From: Gemmatimonadota bacterium
GTDB taxonomy: Bacteria; JAAXHH01
NCBI GenBank assembly: GCA_009835325.1
Contig: VXWP01000005.1
Location: 35,436 to 91,241 of the forward strand
Direction of reading: 5' to 3'
DNA: 55,806 bases
Both the position numbers and the translations under genes were made by a program. The notes beneath the pieces are model-generated. The model saw only the letters and a program-made list of their open reading frames with translations. It searched no databases and was not told the origin of the DNA. Below, one piece after another: positions 23,012 to 53,234 of this stretch (positions are counted from its first letter, which is position 1; every line of letters begins with the position of its first letter).

Positions 23012-25789
23012 ATGGCCATGTCCTCCCCTCCTTCCACTTCCGTCACATCGTCATGGATTACCCGGGGTTTCGAGGCCTTCCGCCGGGGCGCCTTCAGCAA
23101 TGGCGGCCAGAATCTCTATGTGTCGCGGGCGGGGGTGCTGCAACGCATCCACCAGTTCGACCTGGACCGCGACGGCTACGTAGATCTCGTCTTCTGCAAC
23201 AGCCAGAACCACGGTGAAAAACCTCCGGTCACCGTGTACCATGATGTATTCGGACGGACCACTTCCCGGTTCCTGCCGTCCGACGGGGCAAGAACGGGGG
23301 TCGTCGCCGACCTGAACGGGGATGGATACGACGACCTGGTCGTTGGCATGTTCTACAACGGTATCCGGCGGGATCTCAACGCGTTCCTTTACTACGGCGG
23401 TCCGGACGGACTCGGTGAAAGGCGTGTGCAGTACCTGCCCGCGCCTTGCTGCACTTCGGTGGCCGCGGGGGATTTTGACGGCGACGGCAGGCCGGATCTG
23501 GCCTTCGTTTCCGGCGGCAGGCTGCGGCTGTTTCCTCAGACGGCGCTGGGATTCGAGCCGAAGGGCTACCGGGACCTGGATATCGAGGCGGACCAGGCCG
23601 CATCCTGCGACGTGGACGGCGACGGGTTCGCCGACCTGGTCATCCGGACCGCCCGGGGGAATGTCCGGGTATACTGGGGCGGCCCGGACGGAATCGTGCC
23701 GGAACGATCATCCGACGTCCCCGTCGATACCGACCCGCCGGATAAATCGGACCAGGCGGACCAGGCGGACCAGGCGGACCAGGCGGACCAGGCGGACCAG
23801 GACCTCGATGGCTATCCCGAAGAGGTCGATCCCGCTGTCCCGCTGGTCTCCGTGCTCCGGGTCCGGGGTGTGCCCCATGTATTCGTCGCGCGGACCGATG
23901 CGGTCTTTCTCGTGCCCTTCGAAGGGGGACGGGCGGCCGGGACGCCGGTCCGGCTTTCCTGCCGGAACGCCTTCGCCGCCGCCTCGGGCGACCTGGCCGG
24001 GGACGGACGTTGCGACCTGGTCGTGGCCTGCCGGGACCGCCACGACGGGGAGGAGTGTTCGTGGCTGTACCACGGCGGGGACGAGGACAGGTACAGCGAT
24101 CAAAACAGGACGGCGATCCCCAGCCGTTACGCCTGCGATGCGGCGGTCGGGGATCTGGACGGGGATGGCAGGTCCGAGATCGTGATCTGTCAGACCCATA
24201 CGCCGGAAAGCTATACATCGGAATCCCTGGCGTACCGCTGGGGCCGGGACGGGCTGGCGCCGCCGCGCGTCCTCGAGACCCATGACGCCCGGCGGGTGCT
24301 GCTGGTCCGCATGGCCCGCGCATCGGACGATCCCCTTCCTCAGGCCGTTTTCATCAACCAGTTCAGCCGGAACCTGAGGGGCGACATCCCCGTCTGCGTC
24401 TATCACGGCGGTCCCGACGGGTTTGACGCGGAACGCCGCCAGGAAGTACCGGGGTGGGGCGCGGTGGAAGCGCTCCGATGCGACCTGAACGACGACGGGA
24501 TGCCCGATCTGATCCTGGCCAACGCCTCAGAGAACTCGGTCCGCCAGGATCCGGGGTCCTACGTGTATTACAACGGGGAAGGGCGATTCGGAAGCGAACC
24601 GGACGTGCGCCTGCCGACCGTGCGGGCCCACGGGGTCTGTTGCGCGGACCTGGACCGGGACGGATACCTGGACCTCGTCTTCTGCGGTTTCGATAATCCG
24701 GATATCGTCATCTTCTACGGCGGACAAGACGGCTTCGACGCCGGCCGAACGGAGCGCATCCGGCTCGAATACGAGGGCGTCGTGTACAAGGATCCGCGCT
24801 GGATCTTCCTCGTCGACCTGAACGGCGACGGCTGGCTCGATCTGGTCGTGCCGCAGATCGCCGACGACTACAGCTTCATCCTCTGGGGCGGGCCGGAAGG
24901 CTTCAGCATGGACCGGTGCCAGGCGCTTTCCGTGTGGCACGCCGCCTGCGCCCGGGCGGCGGACCTCAGCGGGAACGGGTATCCCGACCTGGTCATCGGC
25001 GGACACGAGCCGTCGATCGGGGCGCCCCACGACTCCTTCGTGCACATCTACTGGAACGGTCCCGACGGGCTACGCGAGGACCGCCGCACCCTCCTGCCGT
25101 CCAACGCGGTGAACGCCATGTCCATCATGGATTTCAACGGCGACGGCCTGCTCGACCTCTTCGTCTGCTCCTACCACGACAACCGCGTGCGGGACATCGA
25201 TTCCTACATCTACTGGAACCGTGCCGGCCGGGGATTCTCCGCCGACGACCGCACCCGGCTATTCACCCATTCCGCGTCGGGCTGCGTGGCCGCGGACTTC
25301 GACGGTGACGGCCGCGTCGACCTCGCCATCGCCTATCACAAGGTCGAGGGCGACCACGTCGGCCATTCCGCCGTCTGGTGGAACGGTCCCGGTGGGTTCG
25401 ACGCCAGGCGGGTCACCCGGCTGCCCACGACAGGTCCCCACGGCATGACCGCCGTGCAGACGGGCGACATGTTGGACGCGGGTCCGGAAGAATACTATGT
25501 CTCGGCGCCGCACGAGATACCCCGGGGACAGGCTGTGACCGGTATCGACTGGGAGGCGGAATACGGACCGGGCACCTGGGTGCACGCCCAGGTCCGGTGG
25601 GCGGACTCGGAGGAGGCGCTGGCACGATCGGCATGGCTTGGCACCGGGGGAGCAGGCACCTGGTACGAAACACCCCAGCCGGTGCGAGCCGCGGGCGCGG
25701 GACCATGGGTCCAGTACCGGCTTGCGTTGGGTGCGAAAAACGGAGGAAGCACCCCGAGGGTCACGGAAGTCCGGCTGGAAACGGGCTGA
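23012..25789 (+). CDS. FG-GAP/VCBS beta-propeller repeat protein
   Basis: A 925-residue protein built of about a dozen FG-GAP/VCBS blades, each with a calcium loop such as DLDRDGYVDLVF, DLNGDGYDDLVV, DFDGDGRPDLAF, DVDGDGFADLVI, DLDGDGRSEIVI, DLNDDGMPDLIL and DFNGDGLLDLFV, and a YYGGPDG-type turn. This implies two propellers. After about residue 820 a small beta domain follows (TGIDWEAEYGPGTWVHAQVRW). Residues about 244-264 are a (Asp-Gln-Ala) run coded by perfect 9-bp repeats. No signal peptide or SD is visible at this ATG, so the start and location are uncertain. Such proteins usually bind carbohydrates or protein partners. Confidence 0.85.
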   Translation: MAMSSPPSTSVTSSWITRGFEAFRRGAFSNGGQNLYVSRAGVLQRIHQFDLDRDGYVDLVFCNSQNHGEKPPVTVYHDVFGRTTSRFLPSDGARTGVVADLNGDGYDDLVVGMFYNGIRRDLNAFLYYGGPDGLGERRVQYLPAPCCTSVAAGDFDGDGRPDLAFVSGGRLRLFPQTALGFEPKGYRDLDIEADQAASCDVDGDGFADLVIRTARGNVRVYWGGPDGIVPERSSDVPVDTDPPDKSDQADQADQADQADQADQDLDGYPEEVDPAVPLVSVLRVRGVPHVFVARTDAVFLVPFEGGRAAGTPVRLSCRNAFAAASGDLAGDGRCDLVVACRDRHDGEECSWLYHGGDEDRYSDQNRTAIPSRYACDAAVGDLDGDGRSEIVICQTHTPESYTSESLAYRWGRDGLAPPRVLETHDARRVLLVRMARASDDPLPQAVFINQFSRNLRGDIPVCVYHGGPDGFDAERRQEVPGWGAVEALRCDLNDDGMPDLILANASENSVRQDPGSYVYYNGEGRFGSEPDVRLPTVRAHGVCCADLDRDGYLDLVFCGFDNPDIVIFYGGQDGFDAGRTERIRLEYEGVVYKDPRWIFLVDLNGDGWLDLVVPQIADDYSFILWGGPEGFSMDRCQALSVWHAACARAADLSGNGYPDLVIGGHEPSIGAPHDSFVHIYWNGPDGLREDRRTLLPSNAVNAMSIMDFNGDGLLDLFVCSYHDNRVRDIDSYIYWNRAGRGFSADDRTRLFTHSASGCVAADFDGDGRVDLAIAYHKVEGDHVGHSAVWWNGPGGFDARRVTRLPTTGPHGMTAVQTGDMLDAGPEEYYVSAPHEIPRGQAVTGIDWEAEYGPGTWVHAQVRWADSEEALARSAWLGTGGAGTWYETPQPVRAAGAGPWVQYRLALGAKNGGSTPRVTEVRLETG
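23741..23803 (+). repeat. 9-bp tandem repeats inside the FG-GAP gene
   Basis: Five perfect copies of GACCAGGCG in a row (23750-23794), flanked by GATAAATCG and GACCAGGAC. They encode Asp-Gln-Ala units and keep the reading frame. Confidence 0.9.
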
Positions 25790-34618: not shown

Positions 34619-34750
34619 TTTCAACATGATCGTCTATTGAAAAAGCGTTCGAATCATACCCCTTGCCCGGACAACCGGGTTGATCAGATTGATTACGCTG
34701 GCTGCGATATATACCTGCCACGCACTTCATACTCCCGAAGGAGACCTCCG

Positions 34751-37700
34751 ATGACACAGCATGTCATTTGGAAAACCCTGAATGCCCTCGTTGTTGTGTC
34801 TGGCGTACTCGTGCTCTACGGCGTCTTAACCGATGCGCGCCCGGCACTCGCGCAAACACAGATATCATGTCCACTGCCTGAAGGGGCAACGCCTCCAGCG
34901 GACCCGGCTGTGACGGCCCGGCAGGTGGAAGAAGGCAGCGCCACCCTTGAAGACTTCGCGCTCGCCGTGCGGGAGCGGTCCAGGGAATATGCCCGCGGGG
35001 CCGCGTCCCACGAGGAAGGGGTATATATCGGATGTATCGTCAGGCAGGAGGATGGAATTTGGCGTTCCGGTTCCACCTACATCGTGAGCTTGACGCTCGA
35101 CGGAAGAGTGTACATTCACGCGAAGAACATGGCACTGTCGGGCCGGCAACTCAACCCCTTGATTTACGGATCGATCCTTCTTTCCCTGGGCGTCCCCCAA
35201 ACCGTTCTGCTTAACCTGGCATCTCCCGATCCCGCTACTGCCGGGCAAGCCTTAAACGCCCTCCTTGGCACATTATCGCAGGAACCGGACGGCGCATTCG
35301 ACGCGACCGTCCCTATTCCGGGCCTGTCACCAGGCATACCCGGCGCCTCGGGCCATACCGCCGTCTATGTGGACCCCAACATAGGTTCTCCGGTCGTGCT
35401 GCTGGTCGGATTCGACATCAATGAGTTGCACCTGGTCAACGAAGTCATCGATTACGGCGACCCGGCCATTACCGCCAGTGAGGTGGTGGACCGGGAGACC
35501 CTGAAGGCCTTCGTCGGGGAAGCAGGGGAATATTATCTCAACCTCTTCCAGACCGAGGGTCGCGCCTCATCCACGAGATCCAGGGTGGCCCTGCGGGATC
35601 CGAACGGACCCTGGCGACATGGCTCCGTGTACCTCTACGTCCTAGACCTCACCAGCAACACGATCCTGGTTCATGGCGCGTTTCCGGACCGATTCGAGCT
35701 TCGGCCCCTGGTAGCGACCGTGCGGGACGTCGTGACCGGAGAACTCATTCTGCCACAGGTCATCGAAGCGGCGAAAAGCAACCCGGAAGGCGGTTTCGTG
35801 GAGTATTACTTCGACGACCCGTCTGACGACACCGACAGTGCCGACGTCCCCAAGGTGGGATACGCCCGCAGGTTCACAGGTGAACTTCCGAGGCCAGACG
35901 GAAGCGTCCTCCCGATCGACGTCATCATCGGGTCAGGGTTTTATGGACGCGCGCCCGAGATTGTCGCACCCTGTCCACTCCCCGACGGCGTTGCTCCTCC
36001 GCTGGACCCGGCTGTGACGGCGCAACAGGTGGAAGACGGCAGCGCCAGCCTGAGGGACTTCACGCTGGCCGCCAGAGAGCGGCTGAACGTGGAAATAGGA
36101 GACGGCGTGTACCTGTACAATCTGTGTCTCATCAGGCGGGAAGGGGGGCCTTACCGTTCCGGTTCCACCTACCTCGTGCAACTGACGCCCGACCGCAGGG
36201 TGTACGTTCACGCGAAGCAAATGGCGTTGTCGGGACGGCGCATCAAAGCCTCGCTCTATACCGCGATCCTGACTGCGCTGGGCGTCACGCCAGCCGATCT
36301 GGTCAGATTGCAATCTACCGATCCCGCCATCCGGGGCCCCGCATACGCCGCCTTCATCGACTTATTGTCGCAGGAACCGGATGGCCCATTCGATGGGACC
36401 CGCTTTGGTGTGCCTGGCGCCTCCGGCCATGTCGGCAGCTACTACTCGGAGCATCTTGGCGTCCCGGTCTTGCTGCTCGCGGGACTCGATCTGAACGAAA
36501 CGCACCTGGATGAGGAAGTCATCGATTACGGCGACCCGGCCATTACCGCCAGCGAGGTGGTGGACCGGAGAACCCTGAAGGCCTTCGTCGCGGAAGCGGG
36601 GAAGTACTTTCTCAACCTTTTCCAGACCGAGGGTCGGGCCTCTTCCACGAAATCCAGGGTTGCCCTGCGGGATCCGAACGGTCCCTGGAGGCATGGTTCG
36701 GTGTACCTCTACGTCCTGGACCTCACCAGCAACACGATCCTGGTTCATGGCGCGTTTCCGGACCGATTCGAGCTTCGGCCCCTGGTAGCGACCGTGCGGG
36801 ACGTCGTGACCGGAGAACTCATTCTGCCACAGGTCATCGAAGCGGCGAAAAGCGACCCGGAAGGCGGCTTCGTGGAGTATTACTTCGACGATCCCACCGA
36901 CGACACCGACAGCGCCGACGTCCCCAAGTTGGGATACGCACGCCGGTTTACAGGTGAACTCCCGAGGGCAGATGGAAGCGTCCTCCCGATCGACGTCATC
37001 ATCGGGTCGGGGCTTTACAATCCTGCACCCGATGAACCGCTGGAGATCACCCTGACGGTATCTCCCGCCACGCTGACGGAGGATGGCGGGGTCCAGACGG
37101 TGACGGTAACGGCCACGCAGTCCAACGCACCGATTCCGGTAGCGTCGGTGATCGACCTTTCTCTGTCCGGCACCGCCACCGCCGACGATTACAGCGTCAC
37201 GGGAGATCTGGTCATCACGATACCCGCCAGAGCGACGGAGGGGTCGACGGATCTGACCTTCACGGTCACGGACGACACGGTATACGAATCCGGGGGCGAG
37301 ACGATTGTCATTACCGCACGCAGCGAGGATGTGGACCTCGATACCGCCACGATTTCGGTTACCGATTCCTATGATGCTCCGGCGACGATTGGTACCCCGC
37401 CGGTGGTAACGCTGGAGGCGGGAGACGACGAGACGGTCGACGCGGGACCGCTGTTCAGCGGTACGGATCTGAGCTATTCGGCGTCCTCGGCGGACAACGG
37501 CGTCGTCGAAGCAGTCATGTCGGGCGCCGCGCTGACGGTAACGGGGGTGCGCAAAGGCGGCGCCACGGTCACCGTCTCGGCCCGTAACGCGGCGGGCGAG
37601 GCGAGTCTGGCCGTCAGCGTGACCGTCACGGCCATTGCGGCGGAGAGAGAGGCTTACGAGAACATCCTGGCCGCCATGGGCCGGAGCATGCTGTCCAGCG

Positions 37701-39046
37701 TCTCCGCAACCATCGGCGGCAGGTTTTCTGCAGGTGGCGGACGGGAGATCACCGTGGGGGGCCGCAGGATCGGCGGACTCGCATCGGGCATCACGGCGCT
37801 GGCCGGACTGACCGGCCACGGCCGGCAGACCGCATCAAGGGAGATGGCGTTGCTCCAGGGCTCGGAACGTCGCAATGGCGCGACCGGAGACTACCTGCTG
37901 CGGACGAGTTCGTTCTCCTACGCGCTGGAGGATCATTCCGGCAGCGGCGGGTTCAGATGGTCCGTCTGGGGTGCCGGCGACCTGCAGAACTTCGAGGGTG
38001 AACCCGACGTGGATACCAGTTACGACGGAAGCCTCAAGACGGCGTATCTCGGTTTTGACGTGGCCACGGGCCGCAGTTGGTTGGCAGGTATCGCCTTGTC
38101 ACGCGCTATGGGCGAGTCCGACTACGACGTTACCGTGGCGAGCGGCAGCCTGGAATCGCGTCTTACCGCGGTGCTGCCGTACTTGCGCTGGGCCTGCCCC
38201 ACCGGTTTCACGGAAGTGTGGACGATCGTGGGTCTAGGCACCGGCGAAGCCGAGGTGGAGGACGGCACGAGCGACCTGTCCATGCGCATGGGCATGCTGG
38301 GCGCACGGTCCCGGCTGGCCTCCTCGGGCAGTCTGGGACTCGATCTGGTGGGCGACGCGGGGTTGCTCCGCCTTTCCACCTCCGACAGTGAATCGGCCGC
38401 GCTGAGCGACATTGCGACCGGCGTACAGCGGATACGGGTCGGCCTGGAAGGGTCGCGTACGACCGCCCTCGCAGGTGGAACCACTGTAACGCCTTACGCG
38501 CAGGTGGCCGGACGCTACGACGGTGGCGACGGCCAGACCGGACAGGGCCTGGAGGTCTCCGGCGGACTCCGCCTGACCGGCGGTCGCGTCGGCCTTAATG
38601 CCCGGGGCCGTTTCCTGGCGGTCCATACGGCCGAGGGATACCGCGAGAACGGCGTTTCCCTCGTCGCCTATCTGCGGCCGAACGCTGACGGCCAGGGTCT
38701 TTCGATGTCCGTGGCCCCGCGCATAGGGGCCGGAACCACAGACTCCGGCATGATGTGGCGCGAACGGCCCCTGGCCGCCTCCACCCTGCGCGGCGGCAGC
38801 CGCGCCCGTTCCATGCGGGCCGAGGTGGGATACGGCCTCGCTTCATCGCCCACGGGCGTGCTCTTCACCCCCTTCGGCGACCTATACCTCGACGGGGATG
38901 AACGCCGTCAGTTGCGGCTGGGCGCCCGCATAGGCGCTGCGGACCTCGGTCCGCGCACCGGATCCCTGGAGCTTTCCGGCTCACGGATCGACCGTCGCGG
39001 CGCATCCGACCATCGCATCGGCCTCGTTGCACGCATGAGCTTCTGA
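34751..39046 (+). CDS. Autotransporter with tandem Cache-like sensor domains
   Basis: A 1431-residue type V-like exported protein. Residues 1-35 are a signal peptide (WKTLNALVVVSGVLVLYGVL, cleavage after ALA). Two long repeats (about 40-400 and 408-760) each contain two Cache-like segments, with patterns such as GSVYLYVLDLTSNTILVHG, VIEAAKS.PEGGFVEYYFDDP and PIDVIIGSGFY. A Calx-beta-like domain (about 762-880) with ITLTVSPATLTEDGG follows, then an Ig-like domain (884-960), a linker, and an outer-membrane barrel (about 1055-1431) ending RIGLVARMSF with a terminal Phe. AAGGAGA precedes the ATG at 34751. Cache domains normally sit on chemoreceptors and kinases, so their use on an outer-membrane passenger is unusual. 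Confidence 0.85.
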   Translation: MTQHVIWKTLNALVVVSGVLVLYGVLTDARPALAQTQISCPLPEGATPPADPAVTARQVEEGSATLEDFALAVRERSREYARGAASHEEGVYIGCIVRQEDGIWRSGSTYIVSLTLDGRVYIHAKNMALSGRQLNPLIYGSILLSLGVPQTVLLNLASPDPATAGQALNALLGTLSQEPDGAFDATVPIPGLSPGIPGASGHTAVYVDPNIGSPVVLLVGFDINELHLVNEVIDYGDPAITASEVVDRETLKAFVGEAGEYYLNLFQTEGRASSTRSRVALRDPNGPWRHGSVYLYVLDLTSNTILVHGAFPDRFELRPLVATVRDVVTGELILPQVIEAAKSNPEGGFVEYYFDDPSDDTDSADVPKVGYARRFTGELPRPDGSVLPIDVIIGSGFYGRAPEIVAPCPLPDGVAPPLDPAVTAQQVEDGSASLRDFTLAARERLNVEIGDGVYLYNLCLIRREGGPYRSGSTYLVQLTPDRRVYVHAKQMALSGRRIKASLYTAILTALGVTPADLVRLQSTDPAIRGPAYAAFIDLLSQEPDGPFDGTRFGVPGASGHVGSYYSEHLGVPVLLLAGLDLNETHLDEEVIDYGDPAITASEVVDRRTLKAFVAEAGKYFLNLFQTEGRASSTKSRVALRDPNGPWRHGSVYLYVLDLTSNTILVHGAFPDRFELRPLVATVRDVVTGELILPQVIEAAKSDPEGGFVEYYFDDPTDDTDSADVPKLGYARRFTGELPRADGSVLPIDVIIGSGLYNPAPDEPLEITLTVSPATLTEDGGVQTVTVTATQSNAPIPVASVIDLSLSGTATADDYSVTGDLVITIPARATEGSTDLTFTVTDDTVYESGGETIVITARSEDVDLDTATISVTDSYDAPATIGTPPVVTLEAGDDETVDAGPLFSGTDLSYSASSADNGVVEAVMSGAALTVTGVRKGGATVTVSARNAAGEASLAVSVTVTAIAAEREAYENILAAMGRSMLSSVSATIGGRFSAGGGREITVGGRRIGGLASGITALAGLTGHGRQTASREMALLQGSERRNGATGDYLLRTSSFSYALEDHSGSGGFRWSVWGAGDLQNFEGEPDVDTSYDGSLKTAYLGFDVATGRSWLAGIALSRAMGESDYDVTVASGSLESRLTAVLPYLRWACPTGFTEVWTIVGLGTGEAEVEDGTSDLSMRMGMLGARSRLASSGSLGLDLVGDAGLLRLSTSDSESAALSDIATGVQRIRVGLEGSRTTALAGGTTVTPYAQVAGRYDGGDGQTGQGLEVSGGLRLTGGRVGLNARGRFLAVHTAEGYRENGVSLVAYLRPNADGQGLSMSVAPRIGAGTTDSGMMWRERPLAASTLRGGSRARSMRAEVGYGLASSPTGVLFTPFGDLYLDGDERRQLRLGARIGAADLGPRTGSLELSGSRIDRRGASDHRIGLVARMSF
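35645..35779 (+). repeat. 135-bp perfect internal repeat, copy 1
   Basis: Identical base for base to 36719-36853. It encodes the DLTSNTILVHGAFPDRFEL part of the Cache-like domain. Confidence 0.95.
36719..36853 (+). repeat. 135-bp perfect internal repeat, copy 2
   Basis: Second copy, 1074 bp downstream of the first. The flanking repeat sequence is similar but not identical, so identity is confined to this core. Confidence 0.95.
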
Positions 39047-42533: not shown

Positions 42534-45500
42534 TTAGCGGATCCAGTAGCTCATGCGCTGGAACGGATAGCCGGGGAGGGCGCGTCTTCGACGGGACTCA
42601 CCCGCGAACAGTCCGCCCGGTGATACCGGCAAACCGATTTCGTAAGCCGTCTTCACCGCATGCATGAATCCGTCTCCTTCCTCTTCGTCGTTTTCATCTG
42701 CAGCATGAGCGAGGCCGCCGAACAAGGTCAGCGCCGCGGCGGCTTCGTCCGCCTGCTTTTCCGGCCATGCTTCGGATATACCCGCCGAAAACCTCGATAC
42801 CGGGCCAATTTCTATCAGCGTATCCACGGCAAGATCGGCCAGGCTTCGCGCCGAAGCGCCCGATCCCTGGCTCGATTCCTGGCCGGCGAGCGATCCCTCG
42901 CCTTCGACTGTCCGATGGATCCAGCGGTCCAGGTCCGCCATCTCTGCCGGCCCCACCCTTTCTCCCGTGGCTCCGCAGACGATCGTCAGTGACGGCGTCG
43001 ATACGGATATCCCATCCAGCCTGGTCTTCGATGCTTCCGCGGCTAAGGGTGCGGAGCGATTTCCATCCATGGTCCCGCCGATCTCCCCGCGCGCCATTGC
43101 GATGCGTAGTCCCTCGTCGAGTGTGAACGCTCCGGCAGCCTGCGCGGCGGCGATCTCCCCGGCGTTGCGGCCACAGACTGCCGAGGGCCGTACATCCAGG
43201 CTGGACCACAGGGCGGTGATCGCGCACTGAAGGGCATAGGCCGCCGGGTCCGCCCAGGCTGGATCGTCGATCGGATGCGCCGTCCCTTCCCCGTCGAACA
43301 GGGGATCGAGCAGGGAGGCCTCCGTTTCGCCGCGGTACAGCGCTTCGCAGTAATCCAGGACGCCTCGCACCACGGGTTCCGAATCGTACAGGCGCTTGCC
43401 GGTATCCCGCCATCCGTCGTCCCAACCATCATATACGAACGCCACCTTCGGCGCGGCCGCGGCCACATTGATCGAGTTCGACTCGACGGAATCAGAACGG
43501 GCCTCATTCGACGCGAGTACGTCCAGTCCTTCGCGGAGCGTTGCGACACTGCGAAACACCACGCCGTTCCGGTAACTGAAGTGGCTTCTACCCACACTTG
43601 CGGTCCACGCCATATCCGACAGGAACTCATCTACCGATTCCGCGTTCGAGCCGGCCGCAAGATTACGATCCAACCAGGACAGGTAACTTCCCGCGAGTTC
43701 CCTGAGTGCCGCCGGGTTCTTGCCCGAGAGCGGCAGGAGGCGGCTCGTCCGCGCCCCGGGACGCACACTGTCCCGTTCCGGTTCCGGAACGCCCGGAGGC
43801 AGTTTCACCGCGACGGCCTGCCGTGCGCCGGTCGCTTCGATCTCCGTTTGCGCCGATCGCGCGCCATCGGCGCGCGTCCCATAGCCTTCGACCACCACGT
43901 GGGCGTTCGCCCCGGATATGCCGAAGGCGCTGACCGCCGCGCGATGCGGCCGTTCGGGACAGGCCGGCCAGTCCACGGTTTCCGAGGTCACCCGCACGGG
44001 AAGGCGGTCCCATTCCACGTTCGGGTTCGGCTTCTCGAAATGAAGTTGTTTCGGGATGCGCCTGTGACGAATCGCCATGACTGCCTTGATCAGTCCGGCG
44101 AGGCCGGCAGCAGACTCGAGATGGCCGATATTGGTCTTCACCGACCCCACCAGGAGCGGCCGGTCCGGCGCGCGTCCCCTGCCGTAAACCGCGGCGGCCG
44201 CCTGCACCTCGATCGGGTCGCCCAGCGCCGAACCGGCGCCGTGGGCCTCCAGATAGTCCACTTCCGCGGGATCGACGCCCGCCTGCGCCAGCGCGTCCTC
44301 GATCACCCGTTCCTGCGCCGGACCATTGGGCACCGTGGGTCCCGCGGTCGCACCGTTCTGGTTGACCGCCGAACCCCGGATGACGCCCCAGATGCGGTCG
44401 CCGTCCGCCTGGGCCGCGCTCAATCGTTTCAACACGACCACGGCGCAGCCTTCGCCTCTAACGAAACCGTCTGCTTTGGCGTCGAAGGCGTAGCAACGAC
44501 CTTTATTGGACAGCATGCCCAGGTAGGCCATTTCCGACGTGATATCGGGGGACAGCACCGTATTTACCGCTCCTGCCAGAGCCATATCCACTTCTCCGAG
44601 ACGGAGGCTGGCCACAGCGTGGTGCACGGCAAACAGGGCCGACGCACAATTCAGTTCCAGAGGGACCGAGGGACCTTCCAGGCCCAACAGGAAGGAAATC
44701 CGGCTTACTGTCAGGCTTCTGGCCGTACCCAGGAAATTGACGCCGCCTCCCTGGTTCTTCATCAGATCACGATACTCGCTGGAAGATATACCCGTGTACA
44801 CCCCCGTACGCGAACCTCGGAGCCTGTCCGGATTGATTCCCGCGTCATCGATCGCGTGCCAACTCGTCTCCAGCAGGAGCCGCTGCTGGGGATCCATGCT
44901 GCGCGCTTCCAGTGGCGATACCCTGAAGAACCTCGCATCGAACTGGTCTATGTCGTCTATGAACCCTGCGCGACGCCAACCTTCGTCGCCCTGGTCCGGC
45001 CCATCCGGCGATACACTCGCCGTTCCGGTGTCGGGACGCACGTCCGTGACGGCATCCGTACCTTCTTCCAGCATGCTCCAGAAGGCATTCAGGTCCGGCG
45101 CGCCGGGAAAACGGCACGCCATGCCGATAATGGCAATGCCTTCGTTTTCGGACCGGGAAACGGCACCGCTCGCGGGTCCTGTGGGCGCTTCCGGGACAGC
45201 AGAGGCACCGCTCGCGGGCCCTGTGGGCGCTTCCGGGGGCGCGATGGCAAAGCGGCCGGATCCGGCAGGCGCTTCCGAACCCGCGGCTTCGCTTCCGCTG
45301 CCACCGGATTCAGGATCGCCGCTTTCCAATTCCGCGTCGCCGATCTCGTCCATCAGGTGGGTGGCGAGAGACGAGATATCCGGATAGTCGAAAACCAGGG
45401 TATTGGGCGCCGTGTAGCTGCCCGCAAGGGCGCGGTTCAACCGGTTCCTCAGTTCGACCGCCATCAGCGAATCCATGCCGAGGTCGAAAAAACCCACGGT

Positions 45501-48500
45501 AGGCGCAGGCGTGGACGACAGCCGAAGCACCGATTGCACTTCCCCTTGCAGGAAGGAAACCAATACGTTCTCCCGTTCCGCGGAGGGTGTATTCCGCAGA
45601 CGGGTCAAGACGTCATCCGAGGATTCCGGCGCCTCTTCCGCCTCCTCCTGGGCAGCCGTGAGCAGGTCCTCGAGCAAGGGCGGCCGGCTTTCCGCCGCTT
45701 CTTCGAATACGGACCAGTCCATCGCCATGACCACGGAATGGGTTCCATCCTGCCGGACCAGCCGGTCCAGTGCCCTCAGGCCCTGCTGCGGGGTAAACCA
45801 GCGACCGCCGAGAGCCGCGCGTTGGCTTTCGATCCGTTCTTTCTGCTCCGCTGCTTCGCCGATCTCCGACCAGGCGCCCCAGGCGATGGCCTGTCCCGGA
45901 AGCCCCAACGCCCGTCGGTGGCCGGCCAACTGGTCCAGGAATGCATTGGCCATGGCGTGGTTCGCCTGGCCCGGGTTGCCCATGACGCCGACCCGGCTCG
46001 AGAAGAGCACGAACAGATCCAGGTCCCGGTCCCGGGTCGCCTGGTGAAGGTGCCAGGCGCCCAGTATCTTGGGCCGCAACACGGTCTCGAAGTTCTCCCA
46101 GCGCTGGTTCCCCAGCGCGCCGTCCGACAGCACACCCACGCTGTGGATCACCCCGCCCAGGGGCGGCAGATCCCGGTCCATGCGCTCGAGCATCGCGTCC
46201 ACCGCGTCCAGATCCGTCACATCCGCCAGTTCCACCTGTACCGCCACACCCCGCTCCCGGAGTTCCTGTATGGCTTCTTCGGCTTCCGCGTCCGGCTGGC
46301 GGCGGCCATTCAGCACGATCGTGCCGGCGCCGCGATCCGCGAGCCAGCCGGCCACCGCGCAACCGATGCCGCCCAGTCCCCCCGTCACCAGGTAGGTGCG
46401 GTCCTTCTTCAATCTGCCGGTGACCAGCGGGGGCGGCGTAACGACGATCTTTCCGAGATGGCGGGCGGACCGCATGAAGGACAGGGCGGCGCCTGCTTCG
46501 GCCAGGGGCCAGCGGCTGTGTATGATGGGTTTAAGTTCTCCCGAAACCAGGCGCTCCATGATACCTCTGAGGACGCGGCCGACCCAGGCAGGGTCCGTCT
46601 TCTTCAGTACATCCAGCTCCAGGATGTCGTAGGCCACGTCGGGACGCAGCGCGGCCATCTCGTCCCCGGTCAGGATGTCGCGCCGGGCCATCTCCACGAA
46701 ACGGCCATCGGGCTTGAGGCAGGACAGGCTGGCGTCGATGAACCCCTCGCCCGTCAGGCTGTTCAGGACCACGTCCACCCCTTCGCCACCCGTGGCTTCG
46801 AGGATCTCCGGTCCGAACGCCGTCGTGCGGCTGTCGTAAATGTGCTCTACGCCCAGCGAGCGGAGATAGGCCTGTTTCGGAGCGCTTGCCGTGGCATGGA
46901 CCTCGGCCCCCGCGGCCTGAACCAGCTGGATGGCCGCCAGTCCCACTCCGCCGGCACCGGCGTGAATGAGCACTTTTTCTCCCGCCTCGAGTCCCGAGTA
47001 CTCGAAGGAAAGCGCGGCGGATACGAAGGCGCTGGGTACCGTGGCGAGTCCGGAGACGGAGAAGCCCTCCGGCGCGGGCGCCACGAGATCCCCATGGGTG
47101 ATCATGAGCGGTGCGAAGGCGCCGAAGCCCAGACCCACCACGTGATCTCCCACCGAGACGGACGATACTCCGTCGCCCACCTCGGTGATCACGCCGCACA
47201 TCTCCCGTCCCAGGAGACCCTCTTCGATGAAGCCGAGGGACCGGAATACATCCCAGAAATTGAGTCCGGCCGCCTCGACCGCTACACGAACTTCGCGGGG
47301 TTCGAGCGGGCGCGGCGGTAGTGGTTGTACGAAGGGTTGGTCGAAGACGCCCGCCGGGTCTGGCGCCAGCACCCATTCCTGGTCTTCCGGAAATTCCAGG
47401 CTACCTGTACTGTCTCCCATTCGAACCAGCCGTGCCACCAGGCGGCCTTCCCGACGGTAGACGATGTGGTTCTCCTCGTCCGGGTACATGAGTTCATTGA
47501 CGAGATCGGGACCCGGCGCCAGTTCCGCGGGATCCAGATCCAGCATCCGTGGTTGCAGATGCGGCGCTTCGCGGGCCACCCCCTTGCCGAATCCCCACAG
47601 GGCGGCACCCGCCAGTTCACCGCCGAGCTCCCGTTCCAGTACCTGGGACCCGCGGGTGATGAACCAGACGCCCCTGGCCGGGGTCGAATCGGTGTCGATC
47701 AGCCCCTGCACGAGTGCGAGGGCACAGGCTCCTGCACGCTGCACTTCCGCGGCCAGTTCCAGCGTGTCGGTCTGCGCACCGGGGCCGTCCAGGCCGGCCA
47801 GGTGTACGACGCCGCTGAACGGCACGTCCCGCGGCAGGCTTTCGATCACCGATCGCCACGATTCCCGTTGTCCCCATTCCGCGGTGGTCCTGACGATACC
47901 CGGGCCGTTTGTGGCAGGCAATCCGTCCGCTGCATCGCCGTCCCGCACCAGGCAGACCGTCTGGTTCCGCGCCGCCAGTGCGGACGCGAGTTCCTCCGCG
48001 CGTCCCGTCCGGTCCTCGGTGAGGATCCACGCGCCGGCAGGTTCGGATACCTTCGCCGGTCCCTGAGCCACGATCACGCCTTTGTCCAGGATCGTGGATG
48101 CGTCCGATGTATCCGGCCCGCCTGGTCCGTCTGGTGCGCCTGTTCCGTCCGGTCCGTCGGGTCCCAGCACTTCCGATTCCGCGAATCCCGCGTCGCCAAG
48201 GGCCCGCCGCCAGACGTCGGGGCCTGCGAGCGCGTGGTGGGGCCGGTAATCGTCGGCGAACCGCCACCAGCCGTCGAGTTGTCCGAAGGTCAGGTCCATC
48301 CAACCCAGTCCGCTGAGGTTCTCGAGTGCGATCAGATGGCCGGACGGTGCGAGCAGATCCCTGCAGTGACCGAGGGTCTCCGTCAGGTACCGTGTCGCGT
48401 GCAATACGTTCGACGCGATCAGCAGGTCATAACCATGGGGTTCGAATCCCTGCCCGATCGGGTCCTTTTCGATATCCAGCGGGCGATAGTCGATGGCTCC

Positions 48501-51500
48501 GCCGCGGTCGCCGAACCGGGATTCCGCTTCGGAGAAGAAACCCGCGGAAATATCGGTGTAGGTGTAGAGGAACCGTCCTTCCGGAAGCTCGGGCAACACG
48601 GACGCGGTCGCGGACCCCGTGCCGGCCCCGACTTCGATTACCCTGAGGCGCCGTCCATCCGGCAGTGTGGAAACGAGGGCCTGCACCGCCTCCGTGAGCA
48701 TCCTGTTCGCGGCCCGCGCGACGGGCGCTTTCAGATAGAGATCGCCCGCCGTCGGTTCTCCGCTGCTGAACAGGAGGGTCAGGGGGTCCTCTTTTCCGCG
48801 AAGCACCTCCGCCAGGGCTAGGCCGGACCGCAGGAACAACCCGATCTCGATCTGGCCCTGGTCATACCTGTCCTTCATCCAGTCGGCGAAGGCCTCGAGG
48901 TCGGCGGGCATGTGTTCAGGGAGCGGATCCTCCGGACCCACAACCACGCGGAATCCGTCGTCCCGCTCATCCATTACGCCGGATCTGGCAAGCATCTCGA
49001 AGAGCCGGCGAAAGAGGCGGGTGTGTTCGGGCAGGACGCCCAGCGCCTGCCGGAGATCGTCGGGATCCACCACCGCGCCTTTCTCACGCTGCCATCCCAG
49101 TTCCTCCAGCGACGCGAGTGCGCGGGACCGCGACCATCGCTCCAGGTCCGCCAGCAGGGCGTTCCGGTTCTCCGGATCCACGCCGGCGTCCGTCAGGTAG
49201 CCCGTAAACGACTGTGCGTTGCCCGCGACTTCCGACGGACTGGGAAAGAATTCCGCCGCTTCGATACCCGGAGCCAGGGGGCGCTCGCGCCATACGACCT
49301 CGTACAGCAGGTCATTCACGCCTTCGACGGCCGCCAGAAGGGCCGCCCGGGTCGCCCGTTTCACCGTGTATCCGCTCAGGCGGCCGACCAGGGCGCCGTT
49401 CGGATCGTAAATCCGCATCTCGCCGCTCAGTACTTCCGGCGTCTCGTCCGGGTTCGCCTCGGCGCCGCGCGAGGATTCGCCCAGCAGCACGTGACAGACC
49501 ACCCGGTCCGGCAGCGGCCCCGCCAGCCACATCCGCTCCCAGCCGAAGGGCAGGTAGGTCGCTCCGCCTTCGGTCTCCGCCACGTTCCGGGCAACGCCCA
49601 TGACCTGGAAGCATCCGTCGAGGACGAGCGGATGCACGTCCAGCCCGTCCCTGTCGTGGGGTTCCGTTATAGAGACCTCCGCTACCGCCTCGCCCGGCCG
49701 GGACCATGCGTTTCCGAGCGTGCGGAAGCTGGGACCGAGATCGACCCCCGTACTCGCCCGGTGGCGGTAGTAGCCCGCAACGTCCACGGGCAAGAGTCCG
49801 TCTTTCAGCGCTTCCAGGTCGACCTGCCGGTCAACCTGGCCAGCCTGGCCAGCCTGACCAGCCTGACCGGACTGGCCGCCCGTACCGTCTCCCGGATCAG
49901 GGGCGCCCGGTGCGATGCGCCCTTCTACATGGACCGTCCACTCTTCTTCATTCCCCTTGCTGTAGATCTGCATGCCTCTGGATGCATCCGGTTTCGCCGT
50001 CTCGATCACGACCTGAACCCGTCGTCCGTTGTCGGCCCCTTCCTCGTCGTCGAAGACCATCGCGTTGTGTAACTGCATGTCTTCCAAAACCATCGGACCG
50101 CTTCCCTCAAGCATTGATACGGCACAGGCCATGGAACCGTACAGGGCGCCTGGAGCCAGGACGCGGTTGAAAACGCGGTGGTCGTTCAGCCAGGATGGAT
50201 CCGCGGGGAAGATCTCCGTTTCGAAGGTGATCTCGCCGCGGGCGGACTCGTGACGGTCTCCCAGCAGGGGATGGCCGGCGCCGCTCCGACGTTGCTTCGG
50301 CGCTTCGACCCAGTGCCGCTGGCGTTGGAACGGGTACCCCGGCAACGAGATCCTGCACCGGGACTCCCCGGCGAACAGTCCTTCGAAACGGATCGGCAGG
50401 CCGGCCTCATAGGCCGCTGCTACAGCGTTTACGAGACTGCCCACTACCGGTATCGGCGAATCATCGGAGGGACGGGTGAGACTGGGGAGCACTTTGGGCG
50501 CCGGTGTCTGCGGAGTTTCCGGCCAGGACGAAACGGTCAGGGGCGCCAGGATCGCGTGCGGACCGATCTCGACGACCAGGTCCGCGCCGAGCGCGGCCAG
50601 CGTGCCGACACTTTGGGCGAAAGCCACGGGTTCCCGCGCGTGCCGCTTCCAGTAGGCCCCGTCGAACAGGTGATCGGAAGCTACTTCCCGTCCCGTCAGA
50701 TTGCTCACCACGGGAATCGACGGGGTACCGATGGCCACCCCGTCCAGTGAGGATTCCAGCGCGTCCAGGGCCGGTTCCACCAGCGCGCTGTGGAAGGCCC
50801 TGGTGGTGTTCAGCCGTCTTGCACGGATCCCTGCCGCCTCGAAGTGTCTCATGACGGCTTCGACGCCCGGGACCGTTCCGCTTACCACCTGGTGCGACCC
50901 GTTGTCCGCCGAGATATTGCACCCGATTCCGCCGGCCGCTTCGAAATCGCCGGCCGCTTCGTTCAGCACTTCCAGTTCGGCTTCGACCCGTTCCGCGGGC
51001 GCGAAAACCGCGGCCATGGCACCTTCTTCGGTACCGGACAGCAAGGTGCCCCGCGTGGCGGCGAACCGCATCCCGTCTTCCAGGCCGAATACCCCCGCGG
51101 CATGCGCCGCGGCCAGTTCCCCGACGCTGTGGCCCATGACCACGGCCGGCCGAACGCCGATGCTTGACCAGAGGGCCGTCAGCGCACATTCCAACGCGAA
51201 AAGCGCCGGTTGCTCCCAGGCCGTGTCGTTCAGCGGTCCTACCGCTTCGTTACGGCCGAACATCACATCCAGCAGTGAGGTCTCGCGGACCTCCTGGAAC
51301 ACCGCTTCACAGCGGTCCAGTACCGCACGGGCTACGGGCTCCTGTTCGTAAAGCGCCTGCCCCATGCCGACCCACTGGCTTCCCTGGCCTGTATAGACAA
51401 ATGCAATCTTCGCCGGTTTCAGGGCGTGCTCGATCGGGCCGGTTCCGGTCAGTTCGGTGAGCCGTTCCCGCAGTGAATCGATATCGTGGAAAGCAATGCC

Positions 51501-53234
51501 CGCGCGGTGATCGAAATGGCTTCTTCCCACGCCCGACGTCCACGCCATATCCGAAAGGAGCCCTTCCAGACCGGCCTCGCCGTCGCCGTCGACGGAGTGC
51601 GATTCTTCGGACCGGCCGGTCTGCTGGTCGAGCCAGGAAAGGTATCGGCCGGCCAGTTCGCGTAACGCGTCGTCCGATTTGCCCGACAGTGGTAGCAATC
51701 GGGTCTTGCGCGGTCCCAGGTCATCGGACGGCACAGGCGCGCCAGCCACCGATTCAGGCAATGAAGCGGCCACAGCGACCGGCGATCCGGCGACCGGCGA
51801 TCCGGCGACCGGCGATCCGGCGACCTCGCGGCCGCCTTCCCCTGCTTCATCCGGTGCGCGGTACTCCTCCACCACGATGTGGGCGTTGGTTCCGGAAATG
51901 CCGAAGGAGTTCACGCCCGCCATGCGCGTGCGCCCGTCCGTACGCGGCCAGTCTATCATTTCCGTGGTAACCCGTATGGGTAGGTTATCCCAATCGATAC
52001 CGGGGTTCGGGTCGTGGAAGTGAAGGTGCTTCGGGATCACTCCATGCTTTACCACCAGGGCGGCCTTGATCAGTCCGGCCACACCCGCGGCCGACTCCAG
52101 GTGGCCGAGATTGGTTTTGACGGAACCCGTCAGCAGCGGATGATCGGCGCCGCGTCCCCGGCAGTAGACTTCGGACACGGCGTCGATCTCGATCGGGTCG
52201 CCCACGGTCGTCCCGGTCCCGTGCGCCTCCAGGTACTCCACGTCCGTAGGAATTACCCCCGCCTGGTCCAGCGCGTCTTCGATCACCTGGATGAGTGCGG
52301 GGGTATGGGGGACGGTCAGGCCCGTGCTGGCTCCGCCGTGGTTTATGGCCGAACCGCGGATGACGCCCCAGATCCGGTCGCCGTCGGCCTCTGCCTCGCT
52401 CAGCCGTTTCAGGACCACCACGCCGCATCCTTCGCCCCGTACGTAGCCGTTCGCCGACGCGTCGAAGGTCTTGCACTGTCCATCCGGTGACAGCATCATG
52501 GAATCGGCGCGCAATTCGTAAATACGGGGATTCAGGAGCGCCTGCACGCCGCCCGCAAGGGCCAGGTCGGCCTTGCCGTGCTGCAGGTCCGATACCGCGT
52601 CGTGGATCGATACCAGAGACGACGCGCAGGCGGCGTCCACCGCCTTTACGGGACCCATCAGGCCCAGTACGAAAGCGACCCTGCCGCAGGTGCCGTTAAG
52701 GTTCGTGCCGCTCAGTGCGTAGAGACAGGAGGCCGCGTCGGAGGGCCGGGTGGATTCCAGGACCAGCATGCGGTACTCGTCGTTGCTGATCCCGGTGTAG
52801 ACCCCGGTACGGCTGCCTTTCAGGCTGTCCGGGTCGATTCCCGCGTCTTCCAGCGCCTGCCAGCTCGTTTCCAGCGTCATCCGCTGCTGCGGGTCCAGCA
52901 ACTGCGCTTCGACCGGTGAAATCCGGAAGAAGGACTCGTCGAACTGGTCGATGTCGTCCACGAAGGCGCCATACCTGCAGCCGTCGCTGATTACCGCGCC
53001 TTCCGGGAAGAGCGTGCCGATGCGCCCGGTACCCGATCCGGGGACGCCCTCGGTCACCGCGTTCCCACCCGCTTCAAGCAGGCGCCAGAATGAATCCAGG
53101 TCCGGTGCGCCGGGAAACTTGCAGGCCATGCCGATGATCGCGATCGACTGTTCGTGCACGGCGTTCCGCTTCGTCCTTTCCCCGGATCGACCGGCCGCTT
53201 TCTCGCTCGCCCGTGGTGGTGTTTCGATCGACAT
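42534..53234 (-). CDS. Type I polyketide synthase: KS-AT-DH-MT-psiKR-ER-KR-ACP-KS-degenerate AT
   Basis: A 3566-residue PKS. Module 1: KS (about 30-455; Cys203 in DAACASS), AT (about 575-890; Ser703 in GHSVG, His815 in AFHS, malonyl type), DH (about 985-1280; His1019, Asp1206), C-methyltransferase (about 1390-1700; VIEVGAGTG 1532-1540), structural KR-like segment, ER (about 1970-2270; HAGAGGVG), KR (about 2275-2460; TGGLGGIG, with His2426 where the catalytic Tyr is expected) and ACP (Ser2589 in GMDSL). This set would make a methyl-branched saturated chain. Then KS2 (about 2710-3130; Cys2863 in ELNCASA, both His motifs kept) and an AT-like domain (about 3230-3566) with GRNAG (3355-3359) for GHSxG. 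The protein ends at the post-AT linker YPFQRMSYWIR. AAAGGGA precedes the ATG; E2 lies 32 bp upstream. Confidence 0.96.
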   Translation of the reverse strand: MSIETPPRASEKAAGRSGERTKRNAVHEQSIAIIGMACKFPGAPDLDSFWRLLEAGGNAVTEGVPGSGTGRIGTLFPEGAVISDGCRYGAFVDDIDQFDESFFRISPVEAQLLDPQQRMTLETSWQALEDAGIDPDSLKGSRTGVYTGISNDEYRMLVLESTRPSDAASCLYALSGTNLNGTCGRVAFVLGLMGPVKAVDAACASSLVSIHDAVSDLQHGKADLALAGGVQALLNPRIYELRADSMMLSPDGQCKTFDASANGYVRGEGCGVVVLKRLSEAEADGDRIWGVIRGSAINHGGASTGLTVPHTPALIQVIEDALDQAGVIPTDVEYLEAHGTGTTVGDPIEIDAVSEVYCRGRGADHPLLTGSVKTNLGHLESAAGVAGLIKAALVVKHGVIPKHLHFHDPNPGIDWDNLPIRVTTEMIDWPRTDGRTRMAGVNSFGISGTNAHIVVEEYRAPDEAGEGGREVAGSPVAGSPVAGSPVAVAASLPESVAGAPVPSDDLGPRKTRLLPLSGKSDDALRELAGRYLSWLDQQTGRSEESHSVDGDGEAGLEGLLSDMAWTSGVGRSHFDHRAGIAFHDIDSLRERLTELTGTGPIEHALKPAKIAFVYTGQGSQWVGMGQALYEQEPVARAVLDRCEAVFQEVRETSLLDVMFGRNEAVGPLNDTAWEQPALFALECALTALWSSIGVRPAVVMGHSVGELAAAHAAGVFGLEDGMRFAATRGTLLSGTEEGAMAAVFAPAERVEAELEVLNEAAGDFEAAGGIGCNISADNGSHQVVSGTVPGVEAVMRHFEAAGIRARRLNTTRAFHSALVEPALDALESSLDGVAIGTPSIPVVSNLTGREVASDHLFDGAYWKRHAREPVAFAQSVGTLAALGADLVVEIGPHAILAPLTVSSWPETPQTPAPKVLPSLTRPSDDSPIPVVGSLVNAVAAAYEAGLPIRFEGLFAGESRCRISLPGYPFQRQRHWVEAPKQRRSGAGHPLLGDRHESARGEITFETEIFPADPSWLNDHRVFNRVLAPGALYGSMACAVSMLEGSGPMVLEDMQLHNAMVFDDEEGADNGRRVQVVIETAKPDASRGMQIYSKGNEEEWTVHVEGRIAPGAPDPGDGTGGQSGQAGQAGQAGQVDRQVDLEALKDGLLPVDVAGYYRHRASTGVDLGPSFRTLGNAWSRPGEAVAEVSITEPHDRDGLDVHPLVLDGCFQVMGVARNVAETEGGATYLPFGWERMWLAGPLPDRVVCHVLLGESSRGAEANPDETPEVLSGEMRIYDPNGALVGRLSGYTVKRATRAALLAAVEGVNDLLYEVVWRERPLAPGIEAAEFFPSPSEVAGNAQSFTGYLTDAGVDPENRNALLADLERWSRSRALASLEELGWQREKGAVVDPDDLRQALGVLPEHTRLFRRLFEMLARSGVMDERDDGFRVVVGPEDPLPEHMPADLEAFADWMKDRYDQGQIEIGLFLRSGLALAEVLRGKEDPLTLLFSSGEPTAGDLYLKAPVARAANRMLTEAVQALVSTLPDGRRLRVIEVGAGTGSATASVLPELPEGRFLYTYTDISAGFFSEAESRFGDRGGAIDYRPLDIEKDPIGQGFEPHGYDLLIASNVLHATRYLTETLGHCRDLLAPSGHLIALENLSGLGWMDLTFGQLDGWWRFADDYRPHHALAGPDVWRRALGDAGFAESEVLGPDGPDGTGAPDGPGGPDTSDASTILDKGVIVAQGPAKVSEPAGAWILTEDRTGRAEELASALAARNQTVCLVRDGDAADGLPATNGPGIVRTTAEWGQRESWRSVIESLPRDVPFSGVVHLAGLDGPGAQTDTLELAAEVQRAGACALALVQGLIDTDSTPARGVWFITRGSQVLERELGGELAGAALWGFGKGVAREAPHLQPRMLDLDPAELAPGPDLVNELMYPDEENHIVYRREGRLVARLVRMGDSTGSLEFPEDQEWVLAPDPAGVFDQPFVQPLPPRPLEPREVRVAVEAAGLNFWDVFRSLGFIEEGLLGREMCGVITEVGDGVSSVSVGDHVVGLGFGAFAPLMITHGDLVAPAPEGFSVSGLATVPSAFVSAALSFEYSGLEAGEKVLIHAGAGGVGLAAIQLVQAAGAEVHATASAPKQAYLRSLGVEHIYDSRTTAFGPEILEATGGEGVDVVLNSLTGEGFIDASLSCLKPDGRFVEMARRDILTGDEMAALRPDVAYDILELDVLKKTDPAWVGRVLRGIMERLVSGELKPIIHSRWPLAEAGAALSFMRSARHLGKIVVTPPPLVTGRLKKDRTYLVTGGLGGIGCAVAGWLADRGAGTIVLNGRRQPDAEAEEAIQELRERGVAVQVELADVTDLDAVDAMLERMDRDLPPLGGVIHSVGVLSDGALGNQRWENFETVLRPKILGAWHLHQATRDRDLDLFVLFSSRVGVMGNPGQANHAMANAFLDQLAGHRRALGLPGQAIAWGAWSEIGEAAEQKERIESQRAALGGRWFTPQQGLRALDRLVRQDGTHSVVMAMDWSVFEEAAESRPPLLEDLLTAAQEEAEEAPESSDDVLTRLRNTPSAERENVLVSFLQGEVQSVLRLSSTPAPTVGFFDLGMDSLMAVELRNRLNRALAGSYTAPNTLVFDYPDISSLATHLMDEIGDAELESGDPESGGSGSEAAGSEAPAGSGRFAIAPPEAPTGPASGASAVPEAPTGPASGAVSRSENEGIAIIGMACRFPGAPDLNAFWSMLEEGTDAVTDVRPDTGTASVSPDGPDQGDEGWRRAGFIDDIDQFDARFFRVSPLEARSMDPQQRLLLETSWHAIDDAGINPDRLRGSRTGVYTGISSSEYRDLMKNQGGGVNFLGTARSLTVSRISFLLGLEGPSVPLELNCASALFAVHHAVASLRLGEVDMALAGAVNTVLSPDITSEMAYLGMLSNKGRCYAFDAKADGFVRGEGCAVVVLKRLSAAQADGDRIWGVIRGSAVNQNGATAGPTVPNGPAQERVIEDALAQAGVDPAEVDYLEAHGAGSALGDPIEVQAAAAVYGRGRAPDRPLLVGSVKTNIGHLESAAGLAGLIKAVMAIRHRRIPKQLHFEKPNPNVEWDRLPVRVTSETVDWPACPERPHRAAVSAFGISGANAHVVVEGYGTRADGARSAQTEIEATGARQAVAVKLPPGVPEPERDSVRPGARTSRLLPLSGKNPAALRELAGSYLSWLDRNLAAGSNAESVDEFLSDMAWTASVGRSHFSYRNGVVFRSVATLREGLDVLASNEARSDSVESNSINVAAAAPKVAFVYDGWDDGWRDTGKRLYDSEPVVRGVLDYCEALYRGETEASLLDPLFDGEGTAHPIDDPAWADPAAYALQCAITALWSSLDVRPSAVCGRNAGEIAAAQAAGAFTLDEGLRIAMARGEIGGTMDGNRSAPLAAEASKTRLDGISVSTPSLTIVCGATGERVGPAEMADLDRWIHRTVEGEGSLAGQESSQGSGASARSLADLAVDTLIEIGPVSRFSAGISEAWPEKQADEAAAALTLFGGLAHAADENDEEEGDGFMHAVKTAYEIGLPVSPGGLFAGESRRRRALPGYPFQRMSYWIR
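45172..45245 (-). repeat. Tandem repeat in the linker after the PKS ACP
   Basis: Two copies of a 48-bp unit encoding PEAPTGPASGA-type Pro/Ala-rich linker sequence, between the ACP and KS2. Confidence 0.75.
48111..48164 (-). repeat. 9-bp tandem repeats in the PKS after the methyltransferase
   Basis: Six 9-bp units, on the coding strand GGACCAGGC-like, encoding GPD/GTG/APD triplets at the end of the MT domain. Confidence 0.8.
49833..49877 (-). repeat. 9-bp tandem repeats in the PKS dehydratase domain
   Basis: Five 9-bp units, on the coding strand GGTCAGGCT and GGCCAGGCT, encoding Gly-Gln-Ala units in a loop between the two halves of the DH fold. Confidence 0.85.
51779..51823 (-). repeat. 15-bp tandem repeats in the PKS KS-AT linker
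   Basis: Three near-perfect 15-bp copies encoding GSPVA, in the linker between KS1 and AT1. Confidence 0.85.

Follow-up and report, generated by a model that had tools for sequence, protein, structure and literature searches.

Background and comparison with described systems

The sCache_2 chemoreceptors (for example, PscD-SD, 5g4y; the V. parahaemolyticus structures 4exo and 2qhk; Adeh_3718, 4k08) carry a single periplasmic domain between two membrane helices, with a cytoplasmic MCP output. In PscD, carboxylates of two or three carbons are gripped by Tyr90, His103, Tyr143 and Lys156, in a pocket that admits very small acids only (PMC5062169). Known members of the dCache_2 family (PF08269) are kinases, MCPs and cyclases (PMC4822843). 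Cache domains are also enriched in sponge Thaumarchaeota, where they were proposed as surface recognition factors (PMC7848895); these proteins are archaeal and are not described as exported or barrel-anchored.

The window analyzed here, a stretch of 55,806 nucleotides from a Gemmatimonadota genome, encodes a 1431-aa protein that resembles several of these systems at once. It has the fold of the sCache_2 chemoreceptors (profile E-values 4e-16 to 5e-12) and keeps the four PscD residues that hydrogen bond the carboxylate, but its Caches are in tandem, predicted to be exported, and without an output domain. It scores above the Pfam cut-off for dCache_2, although each match spans only part of the 298-position model. 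With type Va autotransporters of non-helical passenger, such as EstA (3kvn), it has in common a signal peptide, an N-terminal passenger, a C-terminal barrel and a terminal aromatic residue; its passenger, however, is a Cache array rather than an SGNH hydrolase or a beta-helix. The searchable literature, which omits most subscription papers and preprints, yielded no description of an autotransporter with tandem Caches and no output; the Thaumarchaeota enrichment came nearest. The Cache domain and the barrel are each known, and no priority is claimed for their combination.

Gene structure and domain order

The open reading frame at 34751-39046 (+) is intact and real, its stop codon ending at 39046. 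An upstream TTG at 34637 was rejected as the start because the ATG at 34751 has a Shine-Dalgarno motif. The product begins with a signal peptide, followed by two pairs of domains (A1-B1-A2-B2; residues 40-757) that form the passenger; two Ig-like segments then lead to an autotransporter barrel:

34738..34743, + strand: Shine-Dalgarno motif AAGGAG preceding the ATG at 34751, seen in the sequence
34751..34855, + strand: signal peptide, residues 1-35, ending ALA/Q (putative cleavage site); the sole Kyte-Doolittle segment above 1.6
34868..35455, + strand: A1, divergent Cache-like domain, residues 40-235, with Cys40 and Cys95; 57% identity to A2, A-versus-B profile-profile comparison
35456..35971, + strand: B1, sCache_2/dCache_2-type Cache, residues 236-407, with Y294, H308, Y352 and K368; Pfam dCache_2, pocket mapping
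35972..36529, + strand: A2, divergent Cache-like domain, residues 408-593, retaining Y474 and H487 only; AlphaFold, profile-profile comparison
36530..37021, + strand: B2, sCache_2/dCache_2-type Cache, residues 594-757, with Y652, H666, Y710 and K726; AlphaFold, Foldseek, profile
37031..37390, + strand: Ig-like beta-sandwich spacer, also found between Cache pairs in relatives; alignment
37409..37633, + strand: second Ig-like beta segment, residues about 887-961; strands on a low-confidence model, weak Big_2 match (E 2.4)
37910..39043, + strand: type Va autotransporter outer-membrane barrel with Phe at its end; Pfam PF03797 above cut-off, Foldseek

This architecture, a Cache array on an autotransporter, is well supported and very probably correct. 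By Kyte-Doolittle analysis, the signal peptide is the only transmembrane segment of the 1431-aa protein, and an NCBIfam search returned no match. An earlier remark that the passenger has no obvious signalling output holds, since the protein contains neither a second transmembrane segment nor an output domain. A1 and A2 are 57% identical, while B1 and B2 are 93% identical (92% at the DNA level); the two B domains thus stem from a recent duplication or conversion. The gene lies between an upstream PLP enzyme (SelA/class-V aminotransferase Pfam matches) and a downstream alpha/beta hydrolase, neighbours that suggest no operon partner.

Elsewhere in the window, 7-4701 (+) encodes a leucine-rich-repeat protein of 1565 aa, which has a Peptidase_M66-like match close to the C-terminus and may also act at the surface or towards the host. 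The 925-aa FG-GAP repeat protein at 23012-25786 (+) has a short, weak Pfam match to TcdB_toxin_midN, most likely because FG-GAP repeats are shared. The frame at 42537-53234 (-) encodes a reducing type I polyketide synthase of 3566 aa, with KS, AT, DH, methyltransferase, ER, KR and ACP domains and a second KS and AT.

Cache identity of the passenger domains

The B domains are true Caches of the sCache_2 type. In the window protein they match Pfam dCache_2 with an E-value of 1.5e-9 and 37.9 bits (cut-off 26.5), and the same model is matched by 54 of 55 aligned units and by 58 of 60 diverse B domains. A B-domain profile searched against the PDB retrieved 4exo (3.9e-16), 2qhk (4.5e-16) and 4k08 (3.7e-15), followed by 5g4y (5.4e-12) and TlpB (2.4e-8).

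A1 and A2 had no Pfam or PDB match in sequence-profile searches. Aligned with B by hhalign, however, the A domains gave a probability of 98.2% (E 3e-14), and the HMM matches were reciprocal. The whole A-B unit searched directly against the PDB returned chance matches only. Dilution of the profile by A is the probable cause, and treating A and B separately resolved this. The preliminary description had named structure prediction as a check on its Cache claim, and the AlphaFold model of the A2-B2 unit (pLDDT 89.7, pTM 0.87) is not a non-Cache fold: AlphaFold and Foldseek give a PAS-like Cache fold with an N-terminal helix, and helix and strand order are identical in A and B. Its top match, a Cache, was also its sole PDB match below E 0.001 (5g4y, E 2.9e-5; TM 0.61 by target, Foldseek leaving unspecified whether A or B is the aligned half). 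Profile comparison and model together indicate that A1 and A2 are divergent Caches, homologous to B and of predicted Cache-like fold. Thus, of the four Cache-like segments noted earlier, B1 and B2 are confirmed as Caches, and the divergence of A1 and A2 had been missed.

Conservation of a carboxylate-binding pocket

Pocket positions of PscD were transferred to the window protein by HMMER alignment to 5g4y. Tyr90, His103, Tyr143 and Lys156 correspond to Y652, H666, Y710 and K726 in B2 and to Y294, H308, Y352 and K368 in B1. None of the four residues varies among the B domains of the 55 aligned units, two of which are those of this window. Among 60 B domains with identity down to 22%, 50 have the complete set, and most of the exceptions have Arg for Lys or Phe for Tyr. 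Of 152 alignment columns, the 22 with the highest conservation include all four residues (probability under random placement, 3e-4). The A domains retain the pocket Tyr and His only, the other two residues being missing. The best PDB match of B, 4exo, contains pyruvate.

The earlier suggestion that the passenger may capture small ligands is strengthened by these invariant, putatively carboxylate-binding residues. Pocket residues are conserved throughout the sCache_2 family; thus, the B domains show retention of the site rather than any particular ligand, and this retention could be partly structural. On sequence grounds, B probably binds small carboxylates.

Barrel and stalk

The preliminary description had also placed an outer-membrane barrel behind the Cache segments, and this is borne out. 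Pfam Autotransporter matches the window protein with 29.1 bits (cut-off 26), and the chain ends in Phe. The AlphaFold model of the C-terminal region is poor (mean pLDDT 45), but its best Foldseek matches are BrkA (1.1e-6), NalP (6e-6) and EstA (7.9e-6), with EspP, Hbp and AIDA-I lower among the matches of this low-confidence model. A signal peptide, an N-terminal passenger and a C-terminal beta-barrel, the last modelled with low confidence, place the protein with type Va systems. The Calx-beta label given earlier to part of the stalk was an over-call and was rejected: at a threshold of E<=10, PF03160 matched neither the window protein nor any of six aligned copies. Predicted strands suggest only an Ig-like beta-sandwich in that region.

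Distribution within the genus

The phylum is represented in the collection by 16 genomes, 12 of the window's genus and four others. NCBI labels relatives as Gemmatimonadetes, but this small phylum may be UBA8248/Spongiamicota, whose name reflects its abundance in sponges (PMC11920076). Predicted surface Cache arrays occur in 12 of the 12 genomes of the genus and in none of the four outside it. Architectures in the genus include three A-B units and a barrel (1807-1919 aa), and arrays with a barrel in which Ig-like spacers separate three to about nine Caches of type B (up to 2592 aa); dCache_2 matches are strong in these poly-Cache relatives. The 2592-aa protein (locus L061, 1-10001, -) has about nine B-type Caches, Ig-like spacers and one barrel.

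MCP domains are absent from all 16 genomes of the phylum, including the window's genome, which has no MCPsignal match. A role as signal receptor or in chemotaxis was rejected, given the lack of flanking transmembrane segments, of an output domain and of MCPs. The window's genome encodes one conventional Cache protein, a histidine kinase as identified from its sequence; thus, Cache signalling and predicted Cache display coexist in this bacterium. A second barrel of the same type in this genome (L078; G000:C45:9500-17000) carries another passenger, in which Cache models match nothing.

Relatives in other phyla

The preliminary description had proposed a search for further combinations of Cache and autotransporter. 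Many were found, with a host-linked distribution across phyla that the description had not noticed. A scan of 84,980 species genomes yielded 43 loci, from labelled phyla including Gemmatimonadota, Latescibacterota, Acidobacteriota, Pseudomonadota, Nitrospirota, Binatota and Deltaproteobacteria. Isolate names indicate sponge or coral metagenomes. We read the labels RHO, COS, IRC and APA as Rhopaloeides, Coscinoderma, Ircinia and Aplysina, all of them hosts in the Robbins study (PMC8163846). Ircinia is also the source of the jk18x bins (PMC9531527), and Aplysina aerophoba that of MPMV bin56 (PMC5649159). For the SB06xx, p16x, Plut, m_rhlh7 and CO36386 relatives, the host is taken from the isolate name only.

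Most relatives have a single A-B unit. The barrel end occurs in Alpha-, Gamma- and Deltaproteobacteria as well as in the window's genus; Latescibacterota and other Gemmatimonadota have a tail resembling FlgD_ig/Por_Secre_tail, Acidobacteriota have other tails, and some proteins of locus L036 have none. In L005, L007 and L036, FlgD_ig is above and Por_Secre_tail below the cut-off. In L005, L006 and L014, three to five single-unit Cache genes follow one another in tandem, and most of these genes encode a FlgD/T9SS-like tail. As the Cache module is joined elsewhere to surface or secretion tails of unrelated kinds, what stays constant is predicted export without signalling.

Latescibacterota and Gemmatimonadota sequences cluster with high support in the tree (L023 with L025; L015 with L007, L008 and L014). 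The anchor label changes four times on it, two of the changes being forced by well supported branches, and some relatives are near-identical across phyla. The sequences suggest lateral transfer with exchange of anchors as the simplest reading; mis-binned or mislabelled metagenome-assembled genomes may also lie behind cross-phylum groupings. Two peptide patterns gave 26 candidate stretches in viral contigs, none of them confirmed as a relative, and no relative was found in plasmids; carriage by mobile elements was therefore rejected.

Proposed function and alternative explanations

The best reading of the sequence evidence, with a probability of about 0.55, is a surface array that binds small monocarboxylates and does not signal. 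The protein would be exported by Sec and its C-terminal barrel would enter the outer membrane, so that two A-B Cache units are shown outside the cell on an Ig-like stalk. There, in the host matrix, B would most likely bind small monocarboxylates, of the class to which acetate, propionate, glycolate, lactate and pyruvate belong. The bound acid might then be concentrated at the surface, or its binding might control the conformation of the array or adhesion to the host; these roles are proposed because the array has no signalling domain. We infer the ligand class and the surface exposure of the passenger, and would put any particular biological role of the array at less than even odds. Several points count against this reading. 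The A domains lack two of the four pocket residues, no gene for an uptake partner adjoins the array gene, and the enclosed pocket of solved Caches does not in itself account for adhesion. The cysteine pairs of the A domains (40/95 and 408/459) could also close into disulfides ahead of translocation, a state that some autotransporters handle badly.

The Cache units might instead be mainly structural or adhesive repeats of a modular surface protein that touches host tissue or other cells by its protein surfaces, ligand binding being vestigial. Variable unit number resembles repeat adhesins: close relatives have two or three units and L061 about nine B-type Caches with Ig-like spacers, and the 93% identity of B1 and B2, hence their recent duplication or conversion, fits the same pattern. 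We nevertheless consider this explanation unlikely, as the pocket residues belong to the best conserved positions, and secreted B-type domains that stand alone (L036, 7824-8486) are no stalks.

Host mimicry or immune evasion, with the surface Cache imitating animal extracellular Cache proteins or binding carboxylates on host glycans, would suit bacteria of a group in which eukaryote-like surface proteins are abundant (sponge symbionts; PMC8163846), and the Cache enrichment of sponge Thaumarchaeota, with its suggested recognition factors, points the same way (PMC7848895). Yet B is nearest to bacterial chemoreceptor sCache_2 and not to animal dCache_1, and the PscD pocket takes very small acids only (PMC5062169), which makes this explanation improbable. 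Least probable, and in our judgment very unlikely, is signalling after all, in which the barrel or a partner protein would relay outside binding to the periplasm. Cache is a sensor in nearly all known proteins (PMC4822843), but here the only transmembrane segment is the signal peptide, a known transducing domain is lacking, and other homologs have a secretion tail in place of the barrel.

A surface array that binds small monocarboxylates without signalling thus remains the preferred reading. A broader version is possible but more tentative: a mobile, host-associated Cache unit that binds carboxylates, no longer takes any part in signalling and passes between symbionts of sponges and corals from many phyla. 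Each would have fitted it to its own surface export, as a common tool for handling or recognizing small acids of the host or community.

Significance

Cache would here be a domain repeatedly exported without a receptor, its binding residues intact, in bacteria that lack chemotaxis receptors. On that view, Cache would be a general module for ligand binding at the bacterial surface, and it would offer a concrete, testable molecule by which unrelated symbionts of sponges cope with a shared chemical environment.
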